This document shows positions 3,962 through 20,109 of a DNA stretch of 64,000 nt, piece after piece. Within the stretch, counting starts at the first letter, position 1. Each line of letters starts with the position of its first letter. This DNA is from Sebaldella termitidis ATCC 33386 (GTDB lineage: Bacteria > Fusobacteriota > Fusobacteriia > Fusobacteriales > Leptotrichiaceae). The notes under the pieces were generated by a model. It was given only the letters and a program-made list of their open reading frames with translations. It did not search any database and was not told where the DNA came from. The DNA lies in contig NC_013517.1 in NCBI RefSeq assembly GCF_000024405.1, positions 1-64,000 of the forward strand. The letters run 5' to 3'. The translations under genes were made by a program, and so were the position numbers.

Positions 3962-4213
3962 GTGTATATTTATATCGAAAATAATAATTTTATACCTCTG
4001 AAAGATATAATACTTATAATAGAACATTCTGATTTTGTGAAAGATAAAAAAAACAGAGACTATCTGAATAAATACAGAAAAAAAATAATCGATCTGAGCA
4101 GGAAAGAGCCTAGAACAATAATAATGACCAATGAATTCATATATATAAGCTCTTATACTAACAGAGCACTGAAGATGAGAGCAGAGGAAATGGAAAATCT
4201 GAAGAATCTGTAA
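3962..4213 (+). CDS. remB: RemB/YaaB-like DUF370 protein
   Basis: An 83-residue protein resembling the extracellular matrix regulatory protein RemB (YaaB, DUF370), found between recF and gyrB in many Firmicutes. The N-terminal strands MYIYIENNNFIPLKDII and the TNEFIYISSYTNRALKMRA segment fit the family. It starts with GTG, since the overlapping ATG at 3960 is out of frame and closes after about 13 codons. A GGAAGG site at suitable spacing supports the GTG. Function here is unknown; in Bacillus the related RemA is a DNA-binding regulator of matrix genes. Confidence 0.75.
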   Translation: MYIYIENNNFIPLKDIILIIEHSDFVKDKKNRDYLNKYRKKIIDLSRKEPRTIIMTNEFIYISSYTNRALKMRAEEMENLKNL

Positions 4214-4236
4214 GTGAATATACAGCCGGAGGAAAA

Positions 4237-4917
4237 ATGAGTGAAATTTTTGATGCCAAGAGTATTGCTGTTCTTGGAATTATGGAAGGAATAAGAAAAA
4301 AGCCCGAGATGTTTATCGGCTCTGTGTCAGCTGAAGGGCTCTGCAATCTGGTATGGGAAATAATTGATAACTGTGTAAACGAAGCTTTAGAGGGATTTTG
4401 CAATACTATAAAGGTAAGACTGCTTAAAAATAATATAATAGAAGTATCTGATAACGGAAGAGGACTGCCTGTGGATTTTTACGAAAAAGCCGGTAAATCA
4501 AAGCTTGAGGTTATCTTAACGGGAAAATATATAAGAGGAGAATTAACAGGCGGTATTTACAAGCTTTCACGGAAAAAGTATAAGGGAGGTCTTGTTTCAG
4601 TTAACGGATTATCTGAAACTCTGGAGGCTGTAGTAATAAAAGACGGCAAAGTATGGTATCAGAAATATCATAAAGGAGTGCCGTCAGGAGATATAAAAAA
4701 GACAGGGGAGAAATCTGAATATATTCACGGGACTGTGATAAGATTCAGAGCTGACAGGGAAATTTTCGGGGAATTGGAATATGACTATGAAATTTTGCTT
4801 GCAAAATTAAAGGAAATCCGGGGAATAAAAGTAATTTTATGTGATGAAAGAAATGAAGCTGCCGGAAAAACAGAAAGTTTTTATTTTAACGGGGAAATTA
4901 GAGAGTTTCTTAAATGA
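4237..4917 (+). CDS. Truncated GyrB paralogue (GHKL-like domain only, altered ATP lid)
   Basis: A 226-residue protein clearly homologous to the first ~235 residues of the GyrB encoded just downstream, ending before the transducer, TOPRIM and tail domains. It keeps the catalytic glutamate and Mg-binding asparagine equivalents (E41, N45) and the ATP-binding D72 in DNGRG. The glycine-rich lid is rewritten: GGLHGVG of GyrB is replaced at the same length by RKKYKGG (about residues 112-118). It has its own GGAGGAAAAATG start, the reading frame is intact, and spacing to remB is short, so it is probably co-transcribed with recF-dciA-remB. No typical gyrase activity is possible. It may bind GyrB or DNA, or be a decaying duplicate; the in-frame, length-preserving changes favour a retained protein. 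Confidence 0.85.
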   Translation: MSEIFDAKSIAVLGIMEGIRKKPEMFIGSVSAEGLCNLVWEIIDNCVNEALEGFCNTIKVRLLKNNIIEVSDNGRGLPVDFYEKAGKSKLEVILTGKYIRGELTGGIYKLSRKKYKGGLVSVNGLSETLEAVVIKDGKVWYQKYHKGVPSGDIKKTGEKSEYIHGTVIRFRADREIFGELEYDYEILLAKLKEIRGIKVILCDERNEAAGKTESFYFNGEIREFLK

Positions 4918-4995: not shown

Positions 4996-5024
4996 TTGAT
5001 AAAAAGTCGTAAACATGATAAAAT
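4996..5024 (+). promoter_or_regulatory. Sigma-70-type promoter of gyrB
   Basis: TTGATA at 4996-5001 and TAAAAT at 5019-5024, separated by 17 bases, lie in the gap after the truncated gyrB copy. Predicted transcription would begin about 25 bases before the gyrB ATG. gyrB-gyrA can thus be expressed apart from the recF-side genes. Confidence 0.65.
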
Positions 5025-5056
5025 ATAGAGTATGGAAATATAGAACGGAGGAAAAA

Positions 5057-6985
5057 ATGAGCGATAATTATAACGCGGAGAGTATAACGGTCCTTGAGGG
5101 ACTTGAGGCCGTTAGAAAAAGACCAGGAATGTACATTGGTTCCACATCGGCCAAGGGACTTCACCATTTAGTCTGGGAAGTAGTTGATAATAGTGTCGAT
5201 GAGGCTTTGGCAGGATTTTGCGACACTATAAAAGTAAGAGTACTGGAAGATAATATAATAGAGGTAATCGATAACGGGAGAGGTATCCCGGTAGAAATGC
5301 ACGAAAAAATGGGGAAGTCAACTCTTGAAGTAGTTTTAACAGTGCTGCATGCCGGAGGAAAATTTAATAATGATAACTATAAGGTTTCCGGAGGACTTCA
5401 CGGGGTAGGGGTTTCAGTAGTTAATGCCCTTTCTGAAACCCTTGAGGCCATCATAACAAAAGACGGGAAAGTATGGTATCAAAAATATCACAGAGGAGTA
5501 CCCGAAGAAGATATAAAGCAGATAGGCGAAGCGCCGGAAGATGCTCACGGAACTACAATAAGATTCAAAGCTGACGGTGAAATATTTGAAACGTTGGAAT
5601 ATGATTATGAAATTTTGCTTACAAGACTAAAGGAAATGGCTTATTTAAACAAAGGCTTAAGAATAATTCTAAGTGACGAGAGACAGAAAGATAAACCGAA
5701 AACAGACGATCTGCATTTCGAAGGGGGAATAAGAGACTTCCTTTCAGAGATAGCAGATGATGAAAGAGTGCTGGATGATATAATATACATGGATGATTCA
5801 GTGGAGCTGGACAACAAAAAAAGAGTAGAAGTGGAAATAGCCATGACATACACAATTTCACAAAGAGAAATGGTTTATTCATTCGTAAATAATATAAATA
5901 CTCATGAGGGAGGAACACATGTAAGCGGCTACAGAACAGCACTTACAAGAGTTCTTAACGAGATTTCCAAGCAGATGGGACTGGTAAAGGATAAGGACGG
6001 TTCTTTTCAGGGATCTGATGTAAGAGAAGGTCTGGTGGCTATCTTAAGCATAAAAATTCCAGAACCGCAGTTCGAAGGACAGACAAAAACAAAGCTCGGA
6101 AACAGTGAAATAACAGGTGTAGTATCCGGAATAGTGGGAAGCTCGCTTAAGATGTATCTGGAGGATCATCCTAAAGAAGCTTCAAACATAATAGAAAAGA
6201 TATTAATGTCGAAAAAGGCAAGAGAAGCTGCAAAAAAAGCAAGAGAGCTGGTACTAAGAAAGAGCTCGCTGGAAGTAGGCTCGCTTCCCGGAAAGCTGGC
6301 AGACTGTTCATCAAAAGATGCTTCAGAATGTGAAATATACATAGTCGAAGGAGATTCGGCAGGAGGTTCGGCAAAACAGGGAAGAGACAGAAGATTTCAG
6401 GCTATACTTCCTTTGAGAGGTAAAATATTAAACGTAGAAAAAGCAGGAATAGGAAGAGCTTTGGAAAATGCTGAAATAAGAGCAATGATTACTGCATTCG
6501 GAGCCGGATTCGGCGATGAAATGGATCTGGAAAAATTAAGATATCATAAGATAATAATCATGACTGATGCCGATGTGGACGGAGCACATATAAGAACACT
6601 GATGCTTACTTTCTTCTACAGACATCTGAGAGAGCTGATAAATGAGGGACACATATATATTGCACAGCCGCCGTTATATAAGGTACAGGCCGGAAAGCAG
6701 ATACAGTATGTATATTCGGATGAGCAGCTGCAGAGTGTTACTAAAGTAATGGATCAGGAAAACAAAAGATACGGTATACAGAGATATAAGGGTCTTGGAG
6801 AGATGAATCCCGAACAGCTGTGGGAAACAACAATGGATCCTGAAGTAAGAACTCTGCTGAAAGTATCACTGGAGGATGCCACATACGCAGATAAAATGTT
6901 TAATGTACTGATGGGAGATAAAGTAGAGCCTAGAAGACAATTTATAGAAGAACATGCACAGTATGTAAGAAACTTAGATATCTAA
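5057..6985 (+). CDS. gyrB: DNA gyrase subunit B
   Basis: ATPase subunit of gyrase, which introduces negative supercoils with GyrA. The protein has 642 residues, the normal size of the short bacterial GyrB. It shows the GHKL ATPase domain ([20 protein letters not shown]), the transducer, the TOPRIM domain with EGDSAGGSA and DADVDGAHI, and the tail ending in [10 protein letters not shown] start at the ATG at 5057 because CGGAGG lies 5-10 bases upstream; the frame stays open a further 42 bases upstream to 5015 but that segment overlaps the promoter. A 14-base gap leads to gyrA. Confidence 0.98.
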
Positions 6986-6999
6986 AGAAGAGGTGGACA

Positions 7000-9459
7000 A
7001 TGTCAATAAAAGAAACAGAAATTCTAGCGGAAAAGCCGATATATATAGAAGATGAGATAAAAGCGTCTTATCTGGATTATTCCATGAGTGTAATTGTAAG
7101 CCGGGCTCTTCCTGATGTAAGGGACGGTCTAAAGCCGGTCCACAGAAGGATTTTATTTGCAATGAACGAGCTTGGAATGACCTATGATAAGCCCTATAAA
7201 AAGTCAGCAAGAATCGTCGGGGAAGTTTTGGGTAAATATCACCCGCACGGAGATTCGGCAGTATACGGAGCAATGGTAAGACTGGCTCAGGAATTCAATA
7301 CCAGATACCTTTTGATAAACGGTCACGGAAACTACGGTTCAATTGACGGTGACGGAGCCGCGGCAATGAGATATACAGAAGCAAGAATGGCAAAAATATC
7401 AAACGAGCTGCTGGAAGATATAGATAAAAATACTATTGATTTCAGAAAGAACTTTGATGAAAGTCTGGATGAACCGACAGTACTTCCTGCAAAACTTCCG
7501 AATTTGCTTCTTAACGGAGCTACGGGAATAGCAGTAGGTATGGCTACGAATATACCTCCTCATAATGCAGGAGAAGTATGTGACGGAATAGTGGCAATGA
7601 TAGAAAATCCTGATATAACAATAGACGAACTGATAACATATATAACAGGACCTGATTTTCCTACAGGCGGAATTATAAACGGAAGAAGCGGAATAATAGA
7701 AGCTTATAAAACAGGAAGAGGAAAAGTAAGAGTAGCAGGAAAAATAAAAATAGAAGAAAGTAAAAACGGTAAGGAGTCAATTATAGTAAATGAGCTTCCT
7801 TATCAGGTAAATAAAGCAAGACTTATAGAAAGAATCGCAGAGTTAGTAAGAAATAAAAAGCTGACAGGAATATCCGATCTGAGAGATGAATCAGACAGAG
7901 ACGGAATAAGAGTAGTAATAGAACTGAAAAGAGGCGAAGAAAGTGAATTAATACTAAACAGCCTCTACAAATATACTGATCTGCAGAATACTTTCGGTAT
8001 AATATTTCTGGCTCTTGTTGATAATGCACCAAGAGTACTGAATCTGAAAGAAATACTTCAAAATTATCTGAAACACAGATATTCGGTAGTAACCAGAAGA
8101 ACTAAGTTTGAGCTGGATAAGGCCGAAAAAAGAGCGCATATATTGGAAGGGTTTAAAATAGCTCTGGATAATATAGACGAAGTAATAAAAATAATCAGAG
8201 GATCACAGGACGGAAATGAAGCCAAGGATAAATTAATGGCAGGTTTTGCTTTTTCCGAAGTTCAGGCAAAAGCAATTCTTGATATGAGATTACAAAGGCT
8301 GACAGGTCTGGAACGTGGAAAAATAGAAGAAGAGTATAAAGAATTAATGTTATTAATAGAAGAATTAAAAGCTATTTTAAGTGATCCGGATAAAATTTAT
8401 GCTATAATAAAAGAGGAAGTAAAGAAAATAAAAGAAGATTTTTCTGATCCTAGAAGAACTGAAATAAGAGACGCAAGGGTAGAAATAGGAATAGAGGATC
8501 TTATTAAGGATGAGGAAGTAGTAGTTACACTTACAGATAAAGGTTATGTAAAAAGAACTCCTATTGATGTGTACAGAGCACAAAAAAGAGGAGGAATCGG
8601 AGTAAGTGCTACAAATATCCTTGAGGACGATATAATAAAAGATATGTATATCGCTAAAAATCTGGATTCTTTACTGATTTTTACAACAAAAGGAAAAGTG
8701 CATGACATAAAAGTCTATGAAATACCTGAGGCAAGCAAGCAGGCAAGAGGAAGACTGATAAGCAATATTATAAAGCTTCAGGAAGACGAAATGGTCAGTA
8801 CAATAATAAAAGTAAGAGAATTTGAAAAGGATAAGGATATATTCTTTGTGACAAGAAAAGGAGTTGTCAAGAAAACGAATCTTGAGCTTTTTGCCAGCAT
8901 AAATAAAGCCGGTATAAAAGCTATAGGATTAAAAGATGACGACGAGCTGATTTTCGCAGGACTGACTTCCGGAACATTGAAAGATGAAATATTCCTTGCT
9001 ACAAGAGAAGGTTTTGCTATAAGATTCTCTGAAAATGATGTAAGAAGTATGGGAAGAACAGCATCAGGAGTTAAGGGTATAACATTAAGACCTGAGGATG
9101 TAATAGTTGCCGGTGCGATAATTTATGCTTCAGAAGATCTGAGCGGAAAAACAATACTTACTATCAGTGAAGAAGGATACGGAAAAAGAACAAAGCTGGA
9201 AGAATACAGATTACAGTCACGTGGAGGAAAAGGAATAACAAACTTAAAGAAAAATACTAAAACAGGTAAAATATCCGATGTAAAAATAGTAGATGACAGT
9301 TCTGAAATTATGCTGATAACTTCTGAAGGAACATTAATAAGAACACAGGTAAATTCTATATCTATAATAGGAAGAGCAACATCAGGAGTCAGAATAATGA
9401 AAGTAAGAGAAAATGAAAAAGTAGCATCAACAGTAAAAATAACACCAGAAATCGAATAA
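7000..9459 (+). CDS. gyrA: DNA gyrase subunit A
   Basis: The DNA breakage and reunion subunit of gyrase. The protein has 819 residues. The catalytic tyrosine is Y125 in the segment [10 protein letters not shown], and the quinolone-determining loop GDSAVYG covers D85-G90. The GyrA box, required for DNA wrapping, is QKRGGIG at 528-534, followed by beta-pinwheel repeats to the C-terminus. It directly follows gyrB with an AGAAGAGG ribosome site and must share its promoter. The residue equivalent to E. coli Asp87 is glycine (G90), which from memory is the usual state in Fusobacteria rather than an acquired resistance change. Confidence 0.98.
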
Positions 9460-13278: not shown

Positions 13279-16200
13279 ATGAGAAAAAATAAAAAATTAT
13301 TAGTAGGATTTTTAGCAGTAAATTCTATACTAAATGCGAGTACAGGCAGCAATGATAATGTGATTAAAAATGATAAGTTATTTAATAAAATGGTAAAAAA
13401 TATAGAATCAGGAAAATCTAATGATGAAAATTATAAATTAATTGAGAAAATTTTGAATAAAAGGAATGCAGAACTGAAGGATTTATATCTGCAGAATGAT
13501 TATGTGGTAAAACCTGAATATCTTGAATGGCAATGGTTTGCTACAGGATTTTATACAGAAAGAGGCCGTGGTGATAATACATCGGACAATGCACAGTATC
13601 GTTCGACAACAGAAGGATATTACAATGAAGACGGTGAATATATAGTAACAGAGGGAAAACCGTATATGCCTGTTCAGGGAGTAAAAACCATCAATCTGGG
13701 AATGAGCATTCCAGTTAAAGGGCTGAATTTAGGGGCAATTTCTATTAGTCCCGGAGAAGTAAAGCTTCCCAATATAGAAGAAGTAACTGTGAATATAACA
13801 GTACCAAGCACACCTACAGTGGGAAATGTAAATTTACCTGCATTTACACCAACAGCACCTGCTGTAAATACTCCTTCTATATTTACGCCGCCTGCACTGG
13901 ATAAAGTATCTACAGGATTTGCACAGGGAGATCCTGTGGGATTCAGACCTCAGATAAATGTCATATTGGGAAATTCAAGTGCAGCACCTATAAGCGGTAC
14001 AACGACAGTGACTTCACTGGGCACTTCACAGTTTTCCATAACAGGATCCGGTTTCACATGGAACGGATACAATGACAGTACAACAACATCCGGGACTGTC
14101 ACTACAGGAACATATTCAATGAATACAAACAGTTATCCTTATACATTTTTAAATGTTCTGGCAGGATCATCTACACTCAGCGGAAACTGGATATATCGGA
14201 ATCAGACTACAGGTGCTTCACCTAATACTGCCAGATTTGTCAGTGTAAACCATGCTTATGGTGCAAGACATCTGAATACGGAATTTCATCTTGCTGGAGA
14301 CACTTCTATATATGGAAGAAATGACGGTCATATGACAGTAGGTATAGAATATCAGGCATATGATGCTTTAAGCGCGAAGGCAATTATAGATTCCGGAACG
14401 ACTCTTACTCTTGAAAGCGGTAAAAATCTTTTTGGAATGACTTTAATGATAGAAAGCCCGTATTACAGGGATGATTTTACAAAAATACCTATAGATACAA
14501 CTTGTGCTTCAGGGATATGCAGACCAATGGAAAATCTTCCTATATATTCTACAGCGGAAAATAGAGGAAAAATAGTAATAAACAGTCAAGAAAGTATAGG
14601 AATTGATTTTGCAAAATATACAGTTCCCTCATCAGACGGATCTAATCCAATGGCTATTTATGTGAAGCCGGGAAATATTGAGATAAACGGAAGTTCAAAC
14701 TACGGGATAAGAGTCCCTAATATTTTTGACTACGGGAATCTGGGCGGAGCATATTCAAGAACAAGCCAGCTGGGTACAGTAGTATACAGCAGTAACGGGA
14801 AAGAACAAAATTACTTTAAAGAAACAATAATAGACGGCTCAGGCGGAATGGTAACTGTAGGCGGAAGCCAAAACGTGGGAATTTCTCTGTCAAAAAAGAT
14901 AACAGGATCTACCCAGGTAGCAGGCGTTCAGGGATTAACAGCTTCAGATTCTGCTGATCTTATTGGAAATATAAGAAATTTAAATATAACAGTAAATGGA
15001 ACTGAGGGAATAGGAATACTCAGAAATGCAAACTATGTGGAAAAAGATGATTCTACAGGTCTTCCGTTTGGAGATATAGTATTAAAAAATATAAATGTGG
15101 AAAGTCTGAGCTTTGGAACTGAAGCTGAAAAATCAGTACTTATCAGAAGTGACAGATCAAAGCTGATACTGGAAAAAGACCTTATTCTGACTTCGACACT
15201 TTCAGCGGGAAAATCGGATAATATAGTAATGCTTGCTAATAATTCAGCAACAGCAAACGCTTTAGATCCTTTGTATACTGCAAAAGCAGAAAATAGGGCA
15301 GAAATAAATATAGGAGCAGGACTGTATAAAACAACAGGACTTCTTTCTGCAAACGGAGGAGAAGCAACAAACAGCACTGCCGGTGAGATAATAGTAAATT
15401 CGGAAGAATCGCAGGGAATGGCAGTACTTGTTAATTCTAAGGGCTTTAACAGCGGAATTATAACTGTACTGGGGACAAAGTCCGTAGGTATAGCCAATAT
15501 GGGAGAATTTACCATGACAGCTGGGGAAATAGATGCTTCAGGTGATCAGTCCGTAGGAGTTTACGGGGCTGACAATAATAATAAAACAAATATAAACGGC
15601 GGTACAGTAAAGGTATCAAACAACGGAATAGGTTTTTTTGCCGGAGATAATGCTACAATTAATATAAGCGGGGCTTCCCTTGAAGCAAATGACAAAGGAC
15701 TTTTGTTTTATACATATAAAAATTCTTCTGCATTAACATCCTCAGGTCATATAAACATAACAGGAACGGTAAATGCCACGATAAATGCCGGAGGAACAGC
15801 TTTTTATCTGAAAGATGACCTTAGTCAGATAACTAACTTTATAAACAGTGTATTTACAGGAAGCGGTAAACTTAATCTGAATATGGCAAGCTCTGATTCA
15901 AGACTGTTTATTCTTGATTCACCGGCAAATGACATATATCTGAGCAGTTCTTCAAGCTCTGCAATAGAATCACTGATTCCGTCATCAAAGGTAAGCATCA
16001 CGGGAACAGGATATAAGCCTTATGCAGTATTTAAGGGAACTCTTGTGGTAGACCAGAATGTAAATCTTGACGATACAAACGATGCATATAACAGACTGGA
16101 TTTCATGTCATCAAAAACAATTATTAATCCGGGAATTATAATGTCAGGTACAGGAAATAATGTATCGGCAGTGGGACAGAGAAATTATACAGGAACAAGC

Positions 16201-19200
16201 GGAAGAAATGAAGTAATTGTTATAAATAACGGAACAATAAAACAAACTGGACAAAATGTAATAGGAATAGTAACAGACTATGGAAATATAACTAATGCAG
16301 GATTAATAAGCTCTACAGGTGATAATTCAATAGGAATATACGGAGCAAACGGAACAATAAGCAAAAATACCGGGAAAATAGAAATAGGAAATACCGGAAT
16401 AGGAATATACGGAGGAAATCTGCTTACAGCTTCTGCTCCGGGGTATGGCGATCAGAAAATAGAAATAGAAAATGACAGTGAAATAAAATCGGCGGGAGCA
16501 ACCGGGGGAATAGGAATATATGCAGATAATACAGCTCTGGCATTAGGAGATTCCACAGTAAAACTTGGTACAAATTCTGATATAAATATGGTATCGGCTG
16601 AAAACGGAGTGGGAGTATACGGTAAAACTACCACAGTCAGCGGCGGAGGTACAATATCTGTCGGGAAAAACGGAATAGGAATGCATCTTTTGGATAGTAC
16701 AGCCGGATTAAGTAATATAACTATGAATTTATCAGGTGATAATGCTGTAGGATATAATATTGCCGGAACAAGTACTTTTACAGGAAGCGGGGTTTTCAAC
16801 ACAAACGGAAATAATACAGTATTATTTAATATGCAGAAAACAGCGCCAAGTACTGCATATATAGACTTCTCAGGCTTTAGTGTAAGCGGAACCGGGAATT
16901 ATGTAGGCGGAAATATAGAAAATGCAGGTTTTTATTATAGTAATTCAGGAACAGTAAATGAAAAAAGTACAATAGCAGCCGGAAAAAATTCTGTAATATT
17001 ATTTGATGCAGGAACTAACATAAATGCATCAGGAAGCAGTAATGTAATAGGAATAGCCGACGGAACATACAATGGCGGAATGCCTTTTTCATTCGCAGGT
17101 ACGACAGCTGATAAAGAGCTTACAAACAGAGGAATAATATCAGCGGGTGATAAATCAGCAGTTCTTTATGCCAAAAATAATGCTGCAATGCTAAATGCCG
17201 GAACTGTTACTGTAGGAAAAGAGTCTGTAGGATTATATGGTGTAAGCGTTAATGATGTAGAAAACAAAGGAACAATTAATGTAGGAGAAAATTCAAAGGG
17301 AATCTACCTGAAAGACGGGGTACTTACAGGAGTATTGAATTCAGGAAAGATATTAAGCTCATCTGATACAGCAGTAGGGATAATTTCTGATTACAACGGC
17401 GGAAGTACGACTTTGATAAAAACAACTGATGAAATAAAACTAACAGGAGAAAATTCTGTAGGAATTTATACTACCGGAACCGGTATACAGAATGTAGAAA
17501 ATATAGGACTTATAGAAATAGGAGCTTCTTCTGACAGAAATAATCCAGGAATGGCAATTTATAATACAGGTATAGGAAATACAGTTTTGAATACTGGGAC
17601 AATTACAGCAGGAAATAATTCACTTGGAATTTACAGTAAAGGCGGAGCTGTAACTGAAAGCGGCAATCTTAATGTCGGAAACAGCGGTACGGGAATATAT
17701 TCAGACGGAGGAAGTGTAATAATTAACAATCTCGGTTCTATGAATATAGGAGCAAATGCAGCAGTAGGAGTATATGGAGCAAATAATGCAAATATTCAGA
17801 ATAACTTTGCCAATATAGGGATAGGAAACGGAAGCTACGGATTTATAGCTGAGAGCGGATCAAACGTTACCAATACAGCAGCTCAGATACTTGGGGAAAA
17901 CTCCGTTCTTGTTTACGGAAACGGAGCAGGAAATATTATAAATACAGCAAGCGGAAATATTAGTGCAGCAGGTTCGGGAAATATAGTGTTTTATACAACA
18001 GGCGGCGGAACGGTAATAAATGACGGAAATATAACAGCTGATATAGGGAAAAGCAATATAGGAATTTATAATAACGGAGGAAGCATAACCAATACAGGAA
18101 CTGTATCTGTCGGTGATACTGAACTTGCTTATGATTCATCAGGTAATGTGGATGTATTAAACAGCAGATATGCAGTGGGAATTTACGGAGAAGCATCAAA
18201 AGTAGAGAATCACGGAAACCTGAATATAGGAAATAATGCTGTAGGATTATATGTGAAGGATAACACTATAACAGCATTAAATTATGGGAATATATACGCA
18301 GGAACATCAGCAAGCCCTAAAAATGGAGCAATAGGAATCTTTTCAGAAGGCGGGGCAGGAGTAGAAAATCACGGAAATATTACTTTATATGGTAATGATG
18401 TAATAGGAATAGCCGGAAAAGGGTCTGCAAAAGTAACAAATCACGGAATAATAACAGTAGAGGGACAAGGGGCAACCGGAATTTACGGAACTCTTAATAC
18501 AGTAGTTGATAATCAGGGAACTATAAATGTATCCGGAACGGACAGTGTAGGAATAATAGCACCTAAAGGAAAGATACTGAATAACGGAACGATAAACTTT
18601 ATAAACGGTGCCAAGATGACAGCTATGGATAATGAATATGAAATACCTGAGCTAATCAATGCAGGGATAATAAAAGTAAACGGAAATTTTGAAAATGAAG
18701 GAATGAAAATATCGCTAAAGCCTGATTTGAACACACTACAGGAATCATCAGTAGCAGGAATAGATTTTGTAATGAACAGCGGAAGTATCTCAGCAGATAC
18801 ACTTACAATAACAGATACGGTAAAAATTCTTCCTGATTTTTCACAGGGAACAAATGCCAAGGTGTATAAACTGGAGAATGCTTTTATATCAAGCAATATA
18901 ATATCTGTGACAGGAAAACTTCCTGTGGTAAGTAATTCACTGACTTGGGAAGCAACACCTTCGGTAAATTCAGACGGAAATATAGATATCTATATGTCAA
19001 AGATAGATTATCATGATTTTACCGACGGACTGTGGTATGATGATTTTGGAAAAGCTCTTGATGAAAATTATTATGGATCAGCAGGAGATGCCGGAAAAAT
19101 CTATGACAAGCTGGATCTTATTGAAAACGAAAAAGATTTCAGGCATGTAATGGAAAGCCTTGCAGGGAATATTTATGCCAATATAAACCAGCGTGAGGAA

Positions 19201-20109
19201 GATATCGCAAGAAGCTTTGAAAATTCAATGACTTTAATGCAGAATTCCGATAATAACACAAAAGAAAATGTAAAGATAAATATAATTGCGGGGAAAGGAA
19301 GAACTAAAGAAGATACAGACGGGATTGTAAACTATGATTATACAACAACCGGAGTACTTGCCCTGCGTGAAGTAGAGAGAACTTACAAGCATACATTCGG
19401 ATATTCCCTTGGATATCTGCACACAGGATTTGAATTTAAAGATGGAAACAGCAGTGAGGAATGGGTAGATACTGTGCAGATGGGAGTTCACAATAAGTAT
19501 AAAGCAAACGGATGGAATCTGAGAAATGATCTTACAGGAAGAGTAAGTTTTCATAATATAGACAGAAATATAGACTGGCCTTCTCCTACAGGCAGATCAG
19601 AAATGAACGGAAGCTATGAGACATATAGTATAACAAGTGACAATATTTTCGGAAAAGAGCTTTCGGTAGGAAAAAATACAAGTATAGTACCATATGGAGC
19701 ATTGCGTGCAATGTATGTAACAAGACCTGATTTTAGCGAGAGCGGGGAAGAATCACTAAAAGTAGAAGGTAACGATGCATGGAGTGTAAAACCAAGAGCC
19801 GGAGTAGAATTGAAGACAGCAGTACCTTTATCTGATTCGGGATGGCAGCTGAAAGGAGCTCTTGACATAGCATATGAATATGAGCTTGCGGATCTGAATG
19901 AAAGAGAATATGCAAAATTATCAGCGGTAGAAAATAATTATCATAAATTATCAAAACCGGAAGATGAAAAGGGAACATTAAGAACAAGAGCATCAGTGGG
20001 AGTAGAAGTAAAAGACAGATATGGAATATTCCTGACTGGAGAATACGGAGTAGGAAATAACAGCGAGGATGATTATAGAGCAGGGTTAACATTAAAAGCA
20101 GTATTTTAA
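13279..20109 (+). CDS. Giant type V autotransporter adhesin-like protein
   Basis: A 2276-residue surface protein. Residues 1-22 form a basic then hydrophobic signal sequence. Residues ~25-165 are a non-repetitive region with WQWFATGFYTERGRGD, resembling the N-terminal domain typical of Fusobacteria autotransporters. A Pro/Thr-rich stretch follows (about 167-213, TPTVGNVNLPAFTPTAP). The passenger (~215-1900) consists of irregular beta-helix repeats of about 20-30 residues with recurrent SVGIYG, GIGIYG and NNGTI cores. A helical linker precedes a ~280-residue C-terminal beta-barrel (about 1996-2276), which ends in aromatic F as outer-membrane barrels do. Only two cysteines are obvious, near the middle of the first third. 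AGGAG precedes the ATG. It has its own promoter and terminator; the ligand is unknown. Confidence 0.92.
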   Translation: MRKNKKLLVGFLAVNSILNASTGSNDNVIKNDKLFNKMVKNIESGKSNDENYKLIEKILNKRNAELKDLYLQNDYVVKPEYLEWQWFATGFYTERGRGDNTSDNAQYRSTTEGYYNEDGEYIVTEGKPYMPVQGVKTINLGMSIPVKGLNLGAISISPGEVKLPNIEEVTVNITVPSTPTVGNVNLPAFTPTAPAVNTPSIFTPPALDKVSTGFAQGDPVGFRPQINVILGNSSAAPISGTTTVTSLGTSQFSITGSGFTWNGYNDSTTTSGTVTTGTYSMNTNSYPYTFLNVLAGSSTLSGNWIYRNQTTGASPNTARFVSVNHAYGARHLNTEFHLAGDTSIYGRNDGHMTVGIEYQAYDALSAKAIIDSGTTLTLESGKNLFGMTLMIESPYYRDDFTKIPIDTTCASGICRPMENLPIYSTAENRGKIVINSQESIGIDFAKYTVPSSDGSNPMAIYVKPGNIEINGSSNYGIRVPNIFDYGNLGGAYSRTSQLGTVVYSSNGKEQNYFKETIIDGSGGMVTVGGSQNVGISLSKKITGSTQVAGVQGLTASDSADLIGNIRNLNITVNGTEGIGILRNANYVEKDDSTGLPFGDIVLKNINVESLSFGTEAEKSVLIRSDRSKLILEKDLILTSTLSAGKSDNIVMLANNSATANALDPLYTAKAENRAEINIGAGLYKTTGLLSANGGEATNSTAGEIIVNSEESQGMAVLVNSKGFNSGIITVLGTKSVGIANMGEFTMTAGEIDASGDQSVGVYGADNNNKTNINGGTVKVSNNGIGFFAGDNATINISGASLEANDKGLLFYTYKNSSALTSSGHINITGTVNATINAGGTAFYLKDDLSQITNFINSVFTGSGKLNLNMASSDSRLFILDSPANDIYLSSSSSSAIESLIPSSKVSITGTGYKPYAVFKGTLVVDQNVNLDDTNDAYNRLDFMSSKTIINPGIIMSGTGNNVSAVGQRNYTGTSGRNEVIVINNGTIKQTGQNVIGIVTDYGNITNAGLISSTGDNSIGIYGANGTISKNTGKIEIGNTGIGIYGGNLLTASAPGYGDQKIEIENDSEIKSAGATGGIGIYADNTALALGDSTVKLGTNSDINMVSAENGVGVYGKTTTVSGGGTISVGKNGIGMHLLDSTAGLSNITMNLSGDNAVGYNIAGTSTFTGSGVFNTNGNNTVLFNMQKTAPSTAYIDFSGFSVSGTGNYVGGNIENAGFYYSNSGTVNEKSTIAAGKNSVILFDAGTNINASGSSNVIGIADGTYNGGMPFSFAGTTADKELTNRGIISAGDKSAVLYAKNNAAMLNAGTVTVGKESVGLYGVSVNDVENKGTINVGENSKGIYLKDGVLTGVLNSGKILSSSDTAVGIISDYNGGSTTLIKTTDEIKLTGENSVGIYTTGTGIQNVENIGLIEIGASSDRNNPGMAIYNTGIGNTVLNTGTITAGNNSLGIYSKGGAVTESGNLNVGNSGTGIYSDGGSVIINNLGSMNIGANAAVGVYGANNANIQNNFANIGIGNGSYGFIAESGSNVTNTAAQILGENSVLVYGNGAGNIINTASGNISAAGSGNIVFYTTGGGTVINDGNITADIGKSNIGIYNNGGSITNTGTVSVGDTELAYDSSGNVDVLNSRYAVGIYGEASKVENHGNLNIGNNAVGLYVKDNTITALNYGNIYAGTSASPKNGAIGIFSEGGAGVENHGNITLYGNDVIGIAGKGSAKVTNHGIITVEGQGATGIYGTLNTVVDNQGTINVSGTDSVGIIAPKGKILNNGTINFINGAKMTAMDNEYEIPELINAGIIKVNGNFENEGMKISLKPDLNTLQESSVAGIDFVMNSGSISADTLTITDTVKILPDFSQGTNAKVYKLENAFISSNIISVTGKLPVVSNSLTWEATPSVNSDGNIDIYMSKIDYHDFTDGLWYDDFGKALDENYYGSAGDAGKIYDKLDLIENEKDFRHVMESLAGNIYANINQREEDIARSFENSMTLMQNSDNNTKENVKINIIAGKGRTKEDTDGIVNYDYTTTGVLALREVERTYKHTFGYSLGYLHTGFEFKDGNSSEEWVDTVQMGVHNKYKANGWNLRNDLTGRVSFHNIDRNIDWPSPTGRSEMNGSYETYSITSDNIFGKELSVGKNTSIVPYGALRAMYVTRPDFSESGEESLKVEGNDAWSVKPRAGVELKTAVPLSDSGWQLKGALDIAYEYELADLNEREYAKLSAVENNYHKLSKPEDEKGTLRTRASVGVEVKDRYGIFLTGEYGVGNNSEDDYRAGLTLKAVF

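Follow-up and report, generated by a model that had tools for sequence, protein, structure and literature searches.

The window analysed here is the first 64,000 nucleotides of the 4,418,842-bp chromosome of Sebaldella termitidis ATCC 33386, in which the genes run in the order dnaA, S4, recF, dciA (Pfam DciA), a RemB-like gene, a short paralogue of gyrB, gyrB itself and gyrA. The features on which the argument rests are as follows.

3962 to 4213, forward strand: RemA/RemB-like gene, 83 aa, upstream of the paralogue (a weak match, E = 2e-4, below the gathering cut-off)
4227 to 4231, forward strand: Shine-Dalgarno sequence GGAGG of the gyrB-N paralogue, read from the sequence and resembling the GGAGG of gyrB at 5046-5050
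4237 to 4917, forward strand: gyrB-N paralogue, 226 aa, a stand-alone GyrB 24-kDa (GHKL) domain (ORF, BLASTP, Pfam, ortholog in a second species, omega 0.13, predicted GHKL fold)
4357 to 4371, forward strand: codons 41-45 (E I I D N) of the paralogue, retaining the equivalents of the catalytic Glu and the Mg-binding Asn (alignment)
4450 to 4464, forward strand: codons 72-76 (D N G R G) of the paralogue, the retained adenine-pocket motif (alignment)
4513 to 4605, forward strand: rewritten ATP lid ILTGKYIRGELTGGIYKLSRKKYKGGLVSVN, codons 93-123 of the paralogue (alignments of the ortholog and of GyrB)
4996 to 5024, forward strand: candidate gyrB promoter TTGATA-17-TAAAAT in the gap separating paralogue and gyrB, its second hexamer preceded by TG (consensus scan)
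5057 to 6985, forward strand: gyrB, full length, 642 aa, with a canonical lid; parent or sister copy of the paralogue (ORF, BLASTP/Pfam)
7000 to 9459, forward strand: gyrA, encoding the only PF00521 protein of the genome (profile search)

The RemB-like gene stops 23 bases ahead of the paralogue, which makes co-transcription of the two likely. The candidate gyrB promoter comes from a consensus scan that overall did not exceed shuffle expectation; a similar sequence can be read in the three other Sebaldella genomes (G001, G002 and G003). Profile searches of the S. termitidis genome found a single place for PF00204 and a single place for PF00521, and no topoisomerase IV, so that gyrase is the sole type IIA topoisomerase of this organism. 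The 83-aa RemA/RemB-like gene is retained in all four Sebaldella genomes, lying between dciA and either gyrB or the paralogue. Elsewhere in the window, positions 13279-20109 hold a very large ORF (2276 aa) that contains repetitive stretches of low complexity and whose C-terminal part resembles an autotransporter beta-barrel.

An earlier sequence-only reading described an intact 226-residue copy of the GyrB N-terminal region with its own GGAGG start, and this description stands: the frame opens with ATG, contains no internal stop and aligns by BLASTP with residues 1-229 of the adjacent GyrB over 229 columns at 57-58% identity (E = 5e-90), four residues ('AYLN' of GyrB) being missing after residue 194. 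Pfam assigns it HATPase_c (33.1 bits, cut-off 26.4) and no other domain, finding none of the transducer (PF00204), TOPRIM (PF01751) or C-terminal (PF00986) domains, and its TIGR01059 score of 197 bits against a cut-off of 882 places it outside the GyrB subunits. As had been proposed, similarity to gyrB ends near the stop codon, the 97 bases that follow matching gyrB no better than shuffles do; derivation by truncation of a longer duplicate was rejected on this ground. The codon usage of the paralogue differs from that of highly expressed genes. Net charge moves from -13 in the GyrB N-domain to +2 and 0 in the paralogues of S. termitidis and the second species, and that of the lid from +1 to +6 and +4, a shift that, judged from sequence, would be compatible with nucleic-acid binding.

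The ATP lid of Escherichia coli GyrB comprises residues 99-120, its glycine-rich loop embracing the gamma-phosphate (PMC4159350). In the paralogue the rewriting spans residues 93-121, most of this lid, and includes K102E. The equal-length exchange of GGLHGVG (GyrB 112-118) for RKKYKGG noticed earlier is borne out by the alignment, and the rewriting extends beyond those seven residues. In both orthologs GGLHGVG has become [RP]KKY[KR]GG within a lid region reading Y[IF]RGELT[GD]GIYKLS[RP]KKY[KR]GG (overall LTGKYxRGELTxGIYKLSxKKYxGG), so the glycine-rich lid (G2 motif) is gone. The equivalent of E. coli K103 is Glu and that of H38 is Asn (N37); H38 and E42 are catalytic residues of E. coli GyrB. 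Set against 30 Fusobacteriota GyrB N-domains, the two paralogues share the same new residue at 30 well-conserved positions, 14 of which fall within residues 93-123 (p = 6e-5). Conserved clamp positions are lost in 13 cases out of 15, compared with 54 out of 128 elsewhere (p = 0.002).

The nucleotide pocket, by comparison, keeps 10 of 12 conserved positions, which is only suggestive (p = 0.07) and refers to a residue set based on GyrB structures. E41, N45, E49, D72, G74, R75, G76, Y108, K109 and T166 are retained in both orthologs, among them the E41, N45 and D72 already singled out in the sequence-only reading; E41 is the equivalent of the catalytic Glu of GyrB and N45 that of the Mg-binding Asn. 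Of the features of active GHKL ATPases the paralogue has this Glu and this Asn, and lacks the glycine lid that grips the gamma-phosphate. With the clamp lost and the lysine of the transducer QTK loop missing, the conserved residues suggest that ATP hydrolysis by the paralogue is very unlikely. The N-terminal arm, which in GyrB swaps between the protomers of the ATP-bound dimer, keeps only 3 of 15 positions as in GyrB, and this speaks mildly against canonical ATP-driven mixed dimers.

An AlphaFold2 model of the paralogue built from a six-row alignment has a mean pLDDT of 77.5, the core lying mostly between 80 and 94, with low confidence for lid residues 100-115 and the first 13 residues; a control on the GyrB N-domain was poor (pLDDT 61). 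The top Foldseek match is the 24K fragment of Staphylococcus aureus GyrB with novobiocin (TM by target 0.94). The model and its matches support a predicted GHKL fold, though not a lid conformation, and together with the Pfam result they place the paralogue in the GHKL (HATPase_c) superfamily even though the G2 motif is absent. A GHKL domain lacking an intact lid can still fold and bind pocket ligands, as is indicated by several PDB entries of S. aureus GyrB (e.g. 5cph) whose constructs have no lid in the alignment.

In the second Sebaldella species (G001) an ortholog lies between the RemB-like gene and gyrB, next to the gyrB-gyrA pair as in S. termitidis, likewise of 226 aa, sharing the four-residue deletion and the EFLK C-terminal end and 65% identical to the S. 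termitidis protein. The closest relative of S. termitidis is G002, at a gyrB synonymous distance of 0.26 as against 0.64 to G001, and in this metagenome-assembled genome (MAG; JAITVW010000167.1) only about 56 bp of the 3' end of the paralogue are left (score 80; shuffles 21.6 +/- 3.2). This relic, at L033 3749-3804 (…SFCFNGEIKEFLK*), directly follows the RemB-like gene. A 3' remnant beside an intact 5' flank indicates loss by one internal deletion, for which the GCC(GGA) found at both deletion ends in S. termitidis suggests a short repeat as the site, and shows the paralogue to be old and deleted in G002. The GyrB N-domain of G002 is 98.7% identical to that of S. termitidis, with no evident change compensating for the loss. 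In a further Sebaldella MAG (G003) the site holds 189 bp with no similarity to the paralogue. The loss and the absence, each read from one MAG contig, imply that the paralogue is dispensable in those lineages.

Among 98 Fusobacteriota genomes searched, the other 96 lack a second copy (two of them gave no match at all), and a wider family was accordingly discarded. The contig-search matches inspected are GyrB with a canonical lid, plasmid matches are mostly annotated as gyrB or parE or carry no annotation, and viral matches are 30-35% identical. In one genome of another family of the same order, the only GyrB N-domain match, G074:C1:3104750-3105391, lies in a 227-aa open frame; gyrB is interrupted there, either by a frameshift or by an error in the sequencing. 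Synonymous sites between paralogue and gyrB are saturated. The paralogue groups with Sebaldella GyrB in the tree (97/88, to be read with caution for long branches), and since the G002 relic also speaks for vertical descent, a horizontal origin was rejected as the simplest reading.

Selection was measured with a branch codon model (our own GY94 implementation, F3x4, 226 codons, six sequences, fixed tree), on two branches since two intact orthologs are known. The paralogue tips have an omega of 0.134, and omega = 1 is rejected for them jointly (2dlnL 74.5, p = 6e-18) and for each tip alone (p = 2e-5 and 0.006); gyrB under the same model has an omega of 0.024. On the paralogue stem omega is 0.25 and a value of 1 is not rejected (p = 0.19), so that a relaxed or adaptive stem with constraint afterwards fits. 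Directly compared, the paralogue pair shows dN 0.25 and dS 1.02 (bootstrap omega 0.16-0.37), and in simulations of neutral drift no more than 1 run in 500 kept the frame open. The lid window, residues 93-123, is 84% identical between the orthologs (26/31) against 65% overall, ranking first or second among 196 windows, whereas its nucleotide identity of 75% lies near the gene average of 72%; that the altered lid should be the best-conserved window is what repurposing, and not decay, predicts. The dN/dS and lid-conservation comparison proposed with the sequence-only reading, run here on the G001 pair, therefore comes down on the side of a functional copy and against the slowly decaying duplicate that had been offered beside it. 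Absence from close relatives and stops in other strains, named in advance as findings that would count against function, apply in part: the gene is deleted in G002 and lacking in G003, but its G001 frame is open and constrained. Neither intact ortholog shows the frame disruption or omega near 1 that marks a pseudogene, and the G002 copy is a deletion relic. We regard it as highly probable that the paralogue is a selected protein.

These observations could be accounted for if gyrB underwent a partial tandem duplication within the Sebaldella lineage, giving a stand-alone ATPase (24-kDa GHKL) domain that was later repurposed. With a predicted GHKL fold and a conserved adenine/Mg pocket, but deprived of the lid glycines, the Lys103 and His38 equivalents and the transducer QTK lysine, the product would be a pseudo-ATPase with a basic lid under selection, probably made from the recF-dciA-remB operon if the genes are co-transcribed. 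Judged by its origin, permanent adjacency to gyrB and fold, its most obvious candidate target is gyrase, and a link to that enzyme is plausible; the protein might, for example, compete for or cap a GyrB surface without hydrolysing ATP. A selected, hydrolysis-dead GyrB ATPase-domain protein acting on gyrase is the reading we favour, at somewhat short of an even chance. The fuller proposal, of a lineage-specific pseudo-ATPase from partial gyrB duplication whose selected basic lid serves to regulate the sole type IIA topoisomerase from the adjacent gene, is put forward more tentatively still.

A functional but gyrase-independent role, in which the basic-lid GHKL fold would bind another ligand or nucleic acid or sense adenine nucleotide, is nearly as likely given the diverged N-terminal arm and the easy loss in G002, where GyrB stayed nearly unchanged, and we give it a substantial though minority chance. 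The charge shift of both domain and lid, and an adenine pocket conserved alongside a new conserved lid, would suit such a role; the position directly upstream of gyrB in both species and GyrB as nearest homologue tell against it. Much less probable is a decoy soaking up aminocoumarin-type GyrB inhibitors, for whose binding the lid is not needed: the equivalents of the drug-binding residues D73, R76, G77 and T165 of E. coli are kept and the best structural matches are complexes of GyrB 24K with novobiocin, some of these from constructs lacking lid sequence, but the strong conservation of the new lid would go unexplained, the drug-site residue P78 is T in G001, and stoichiometric decoys need high expression, which the codon usage does not indicate. 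An inert, slowly decaying gyrB duplicate might be suspected from an omega above that of gyrB and from the deletion in G002 and absence from G003, yet it is very improbable with neutrality rejected on the tips, the frame open at a synonymous distance of about 1 and the altered segment conserved best. Equally improbable is selection on DNA or translation, with the gene acting as a spacer or leader in the expression of gyrB. Its position, with remB on one side and the gyrB promoter on the other, would allow this, but the reading conflicts with conservation at the amino-acid level, the lid included, and with the candidate gyrB promoter being kept in G002 and G003, both without the paralogue.

Should the favoured gyrase-directed reading be right, an essential topoisomerase would have yielded its own regulator by partial duplication. 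One genus offers the dated states of this gene, intact in S. termitidis and G001, deleted with a relic in G002 and absent in G003, and with them a natural experiment on the capabilities of a GHKL domain whose ATP lid has been replaced.

Fragments derived from GyrB are familiar, as are GHKL domains that lack ATPase activity; this Sebaldella protein is not described in the titles and abstracts of the open-access literature searched, and PADLOC gave no match for it among anti-phage defence systems. Small gyrase-acting proteins, host-encoded or mobile, include YacG, MfpA/Qnr, ParE toxins and FicT, of which MfpA contacts the ATPase region of GyrB (reviewed in PMC10886550); in the parts of that review covered here none of the inhibitors and modulators was found to derive from GyrB itself, and for the Sebaldella protein an action on gyrase is a proposal. 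Another comparison is with GYRB3 of Arabidopsis thaliana, a shortened GyrB relative that exists beside functional GyrB copies and is reported not to be a gyrase subunit (PMC2845627); it and the Sebaldella paralogue are both shortened GyrB relatives, of separate origin. A further comparison is with the GyrB 24-kDa domain itself, with which the paralogue shares 57-58% identity, the predicted fold and the N-box/G1 residues E41, N45, D72, G74, R75, G76 and T166, while differing in standing alone, without transducer (QTK loop), TOPRIM or GyrA contact, in lacking the lid glycines and the K103 and H38 equivalents, and in its four-residue deletion and near-neutral charge.
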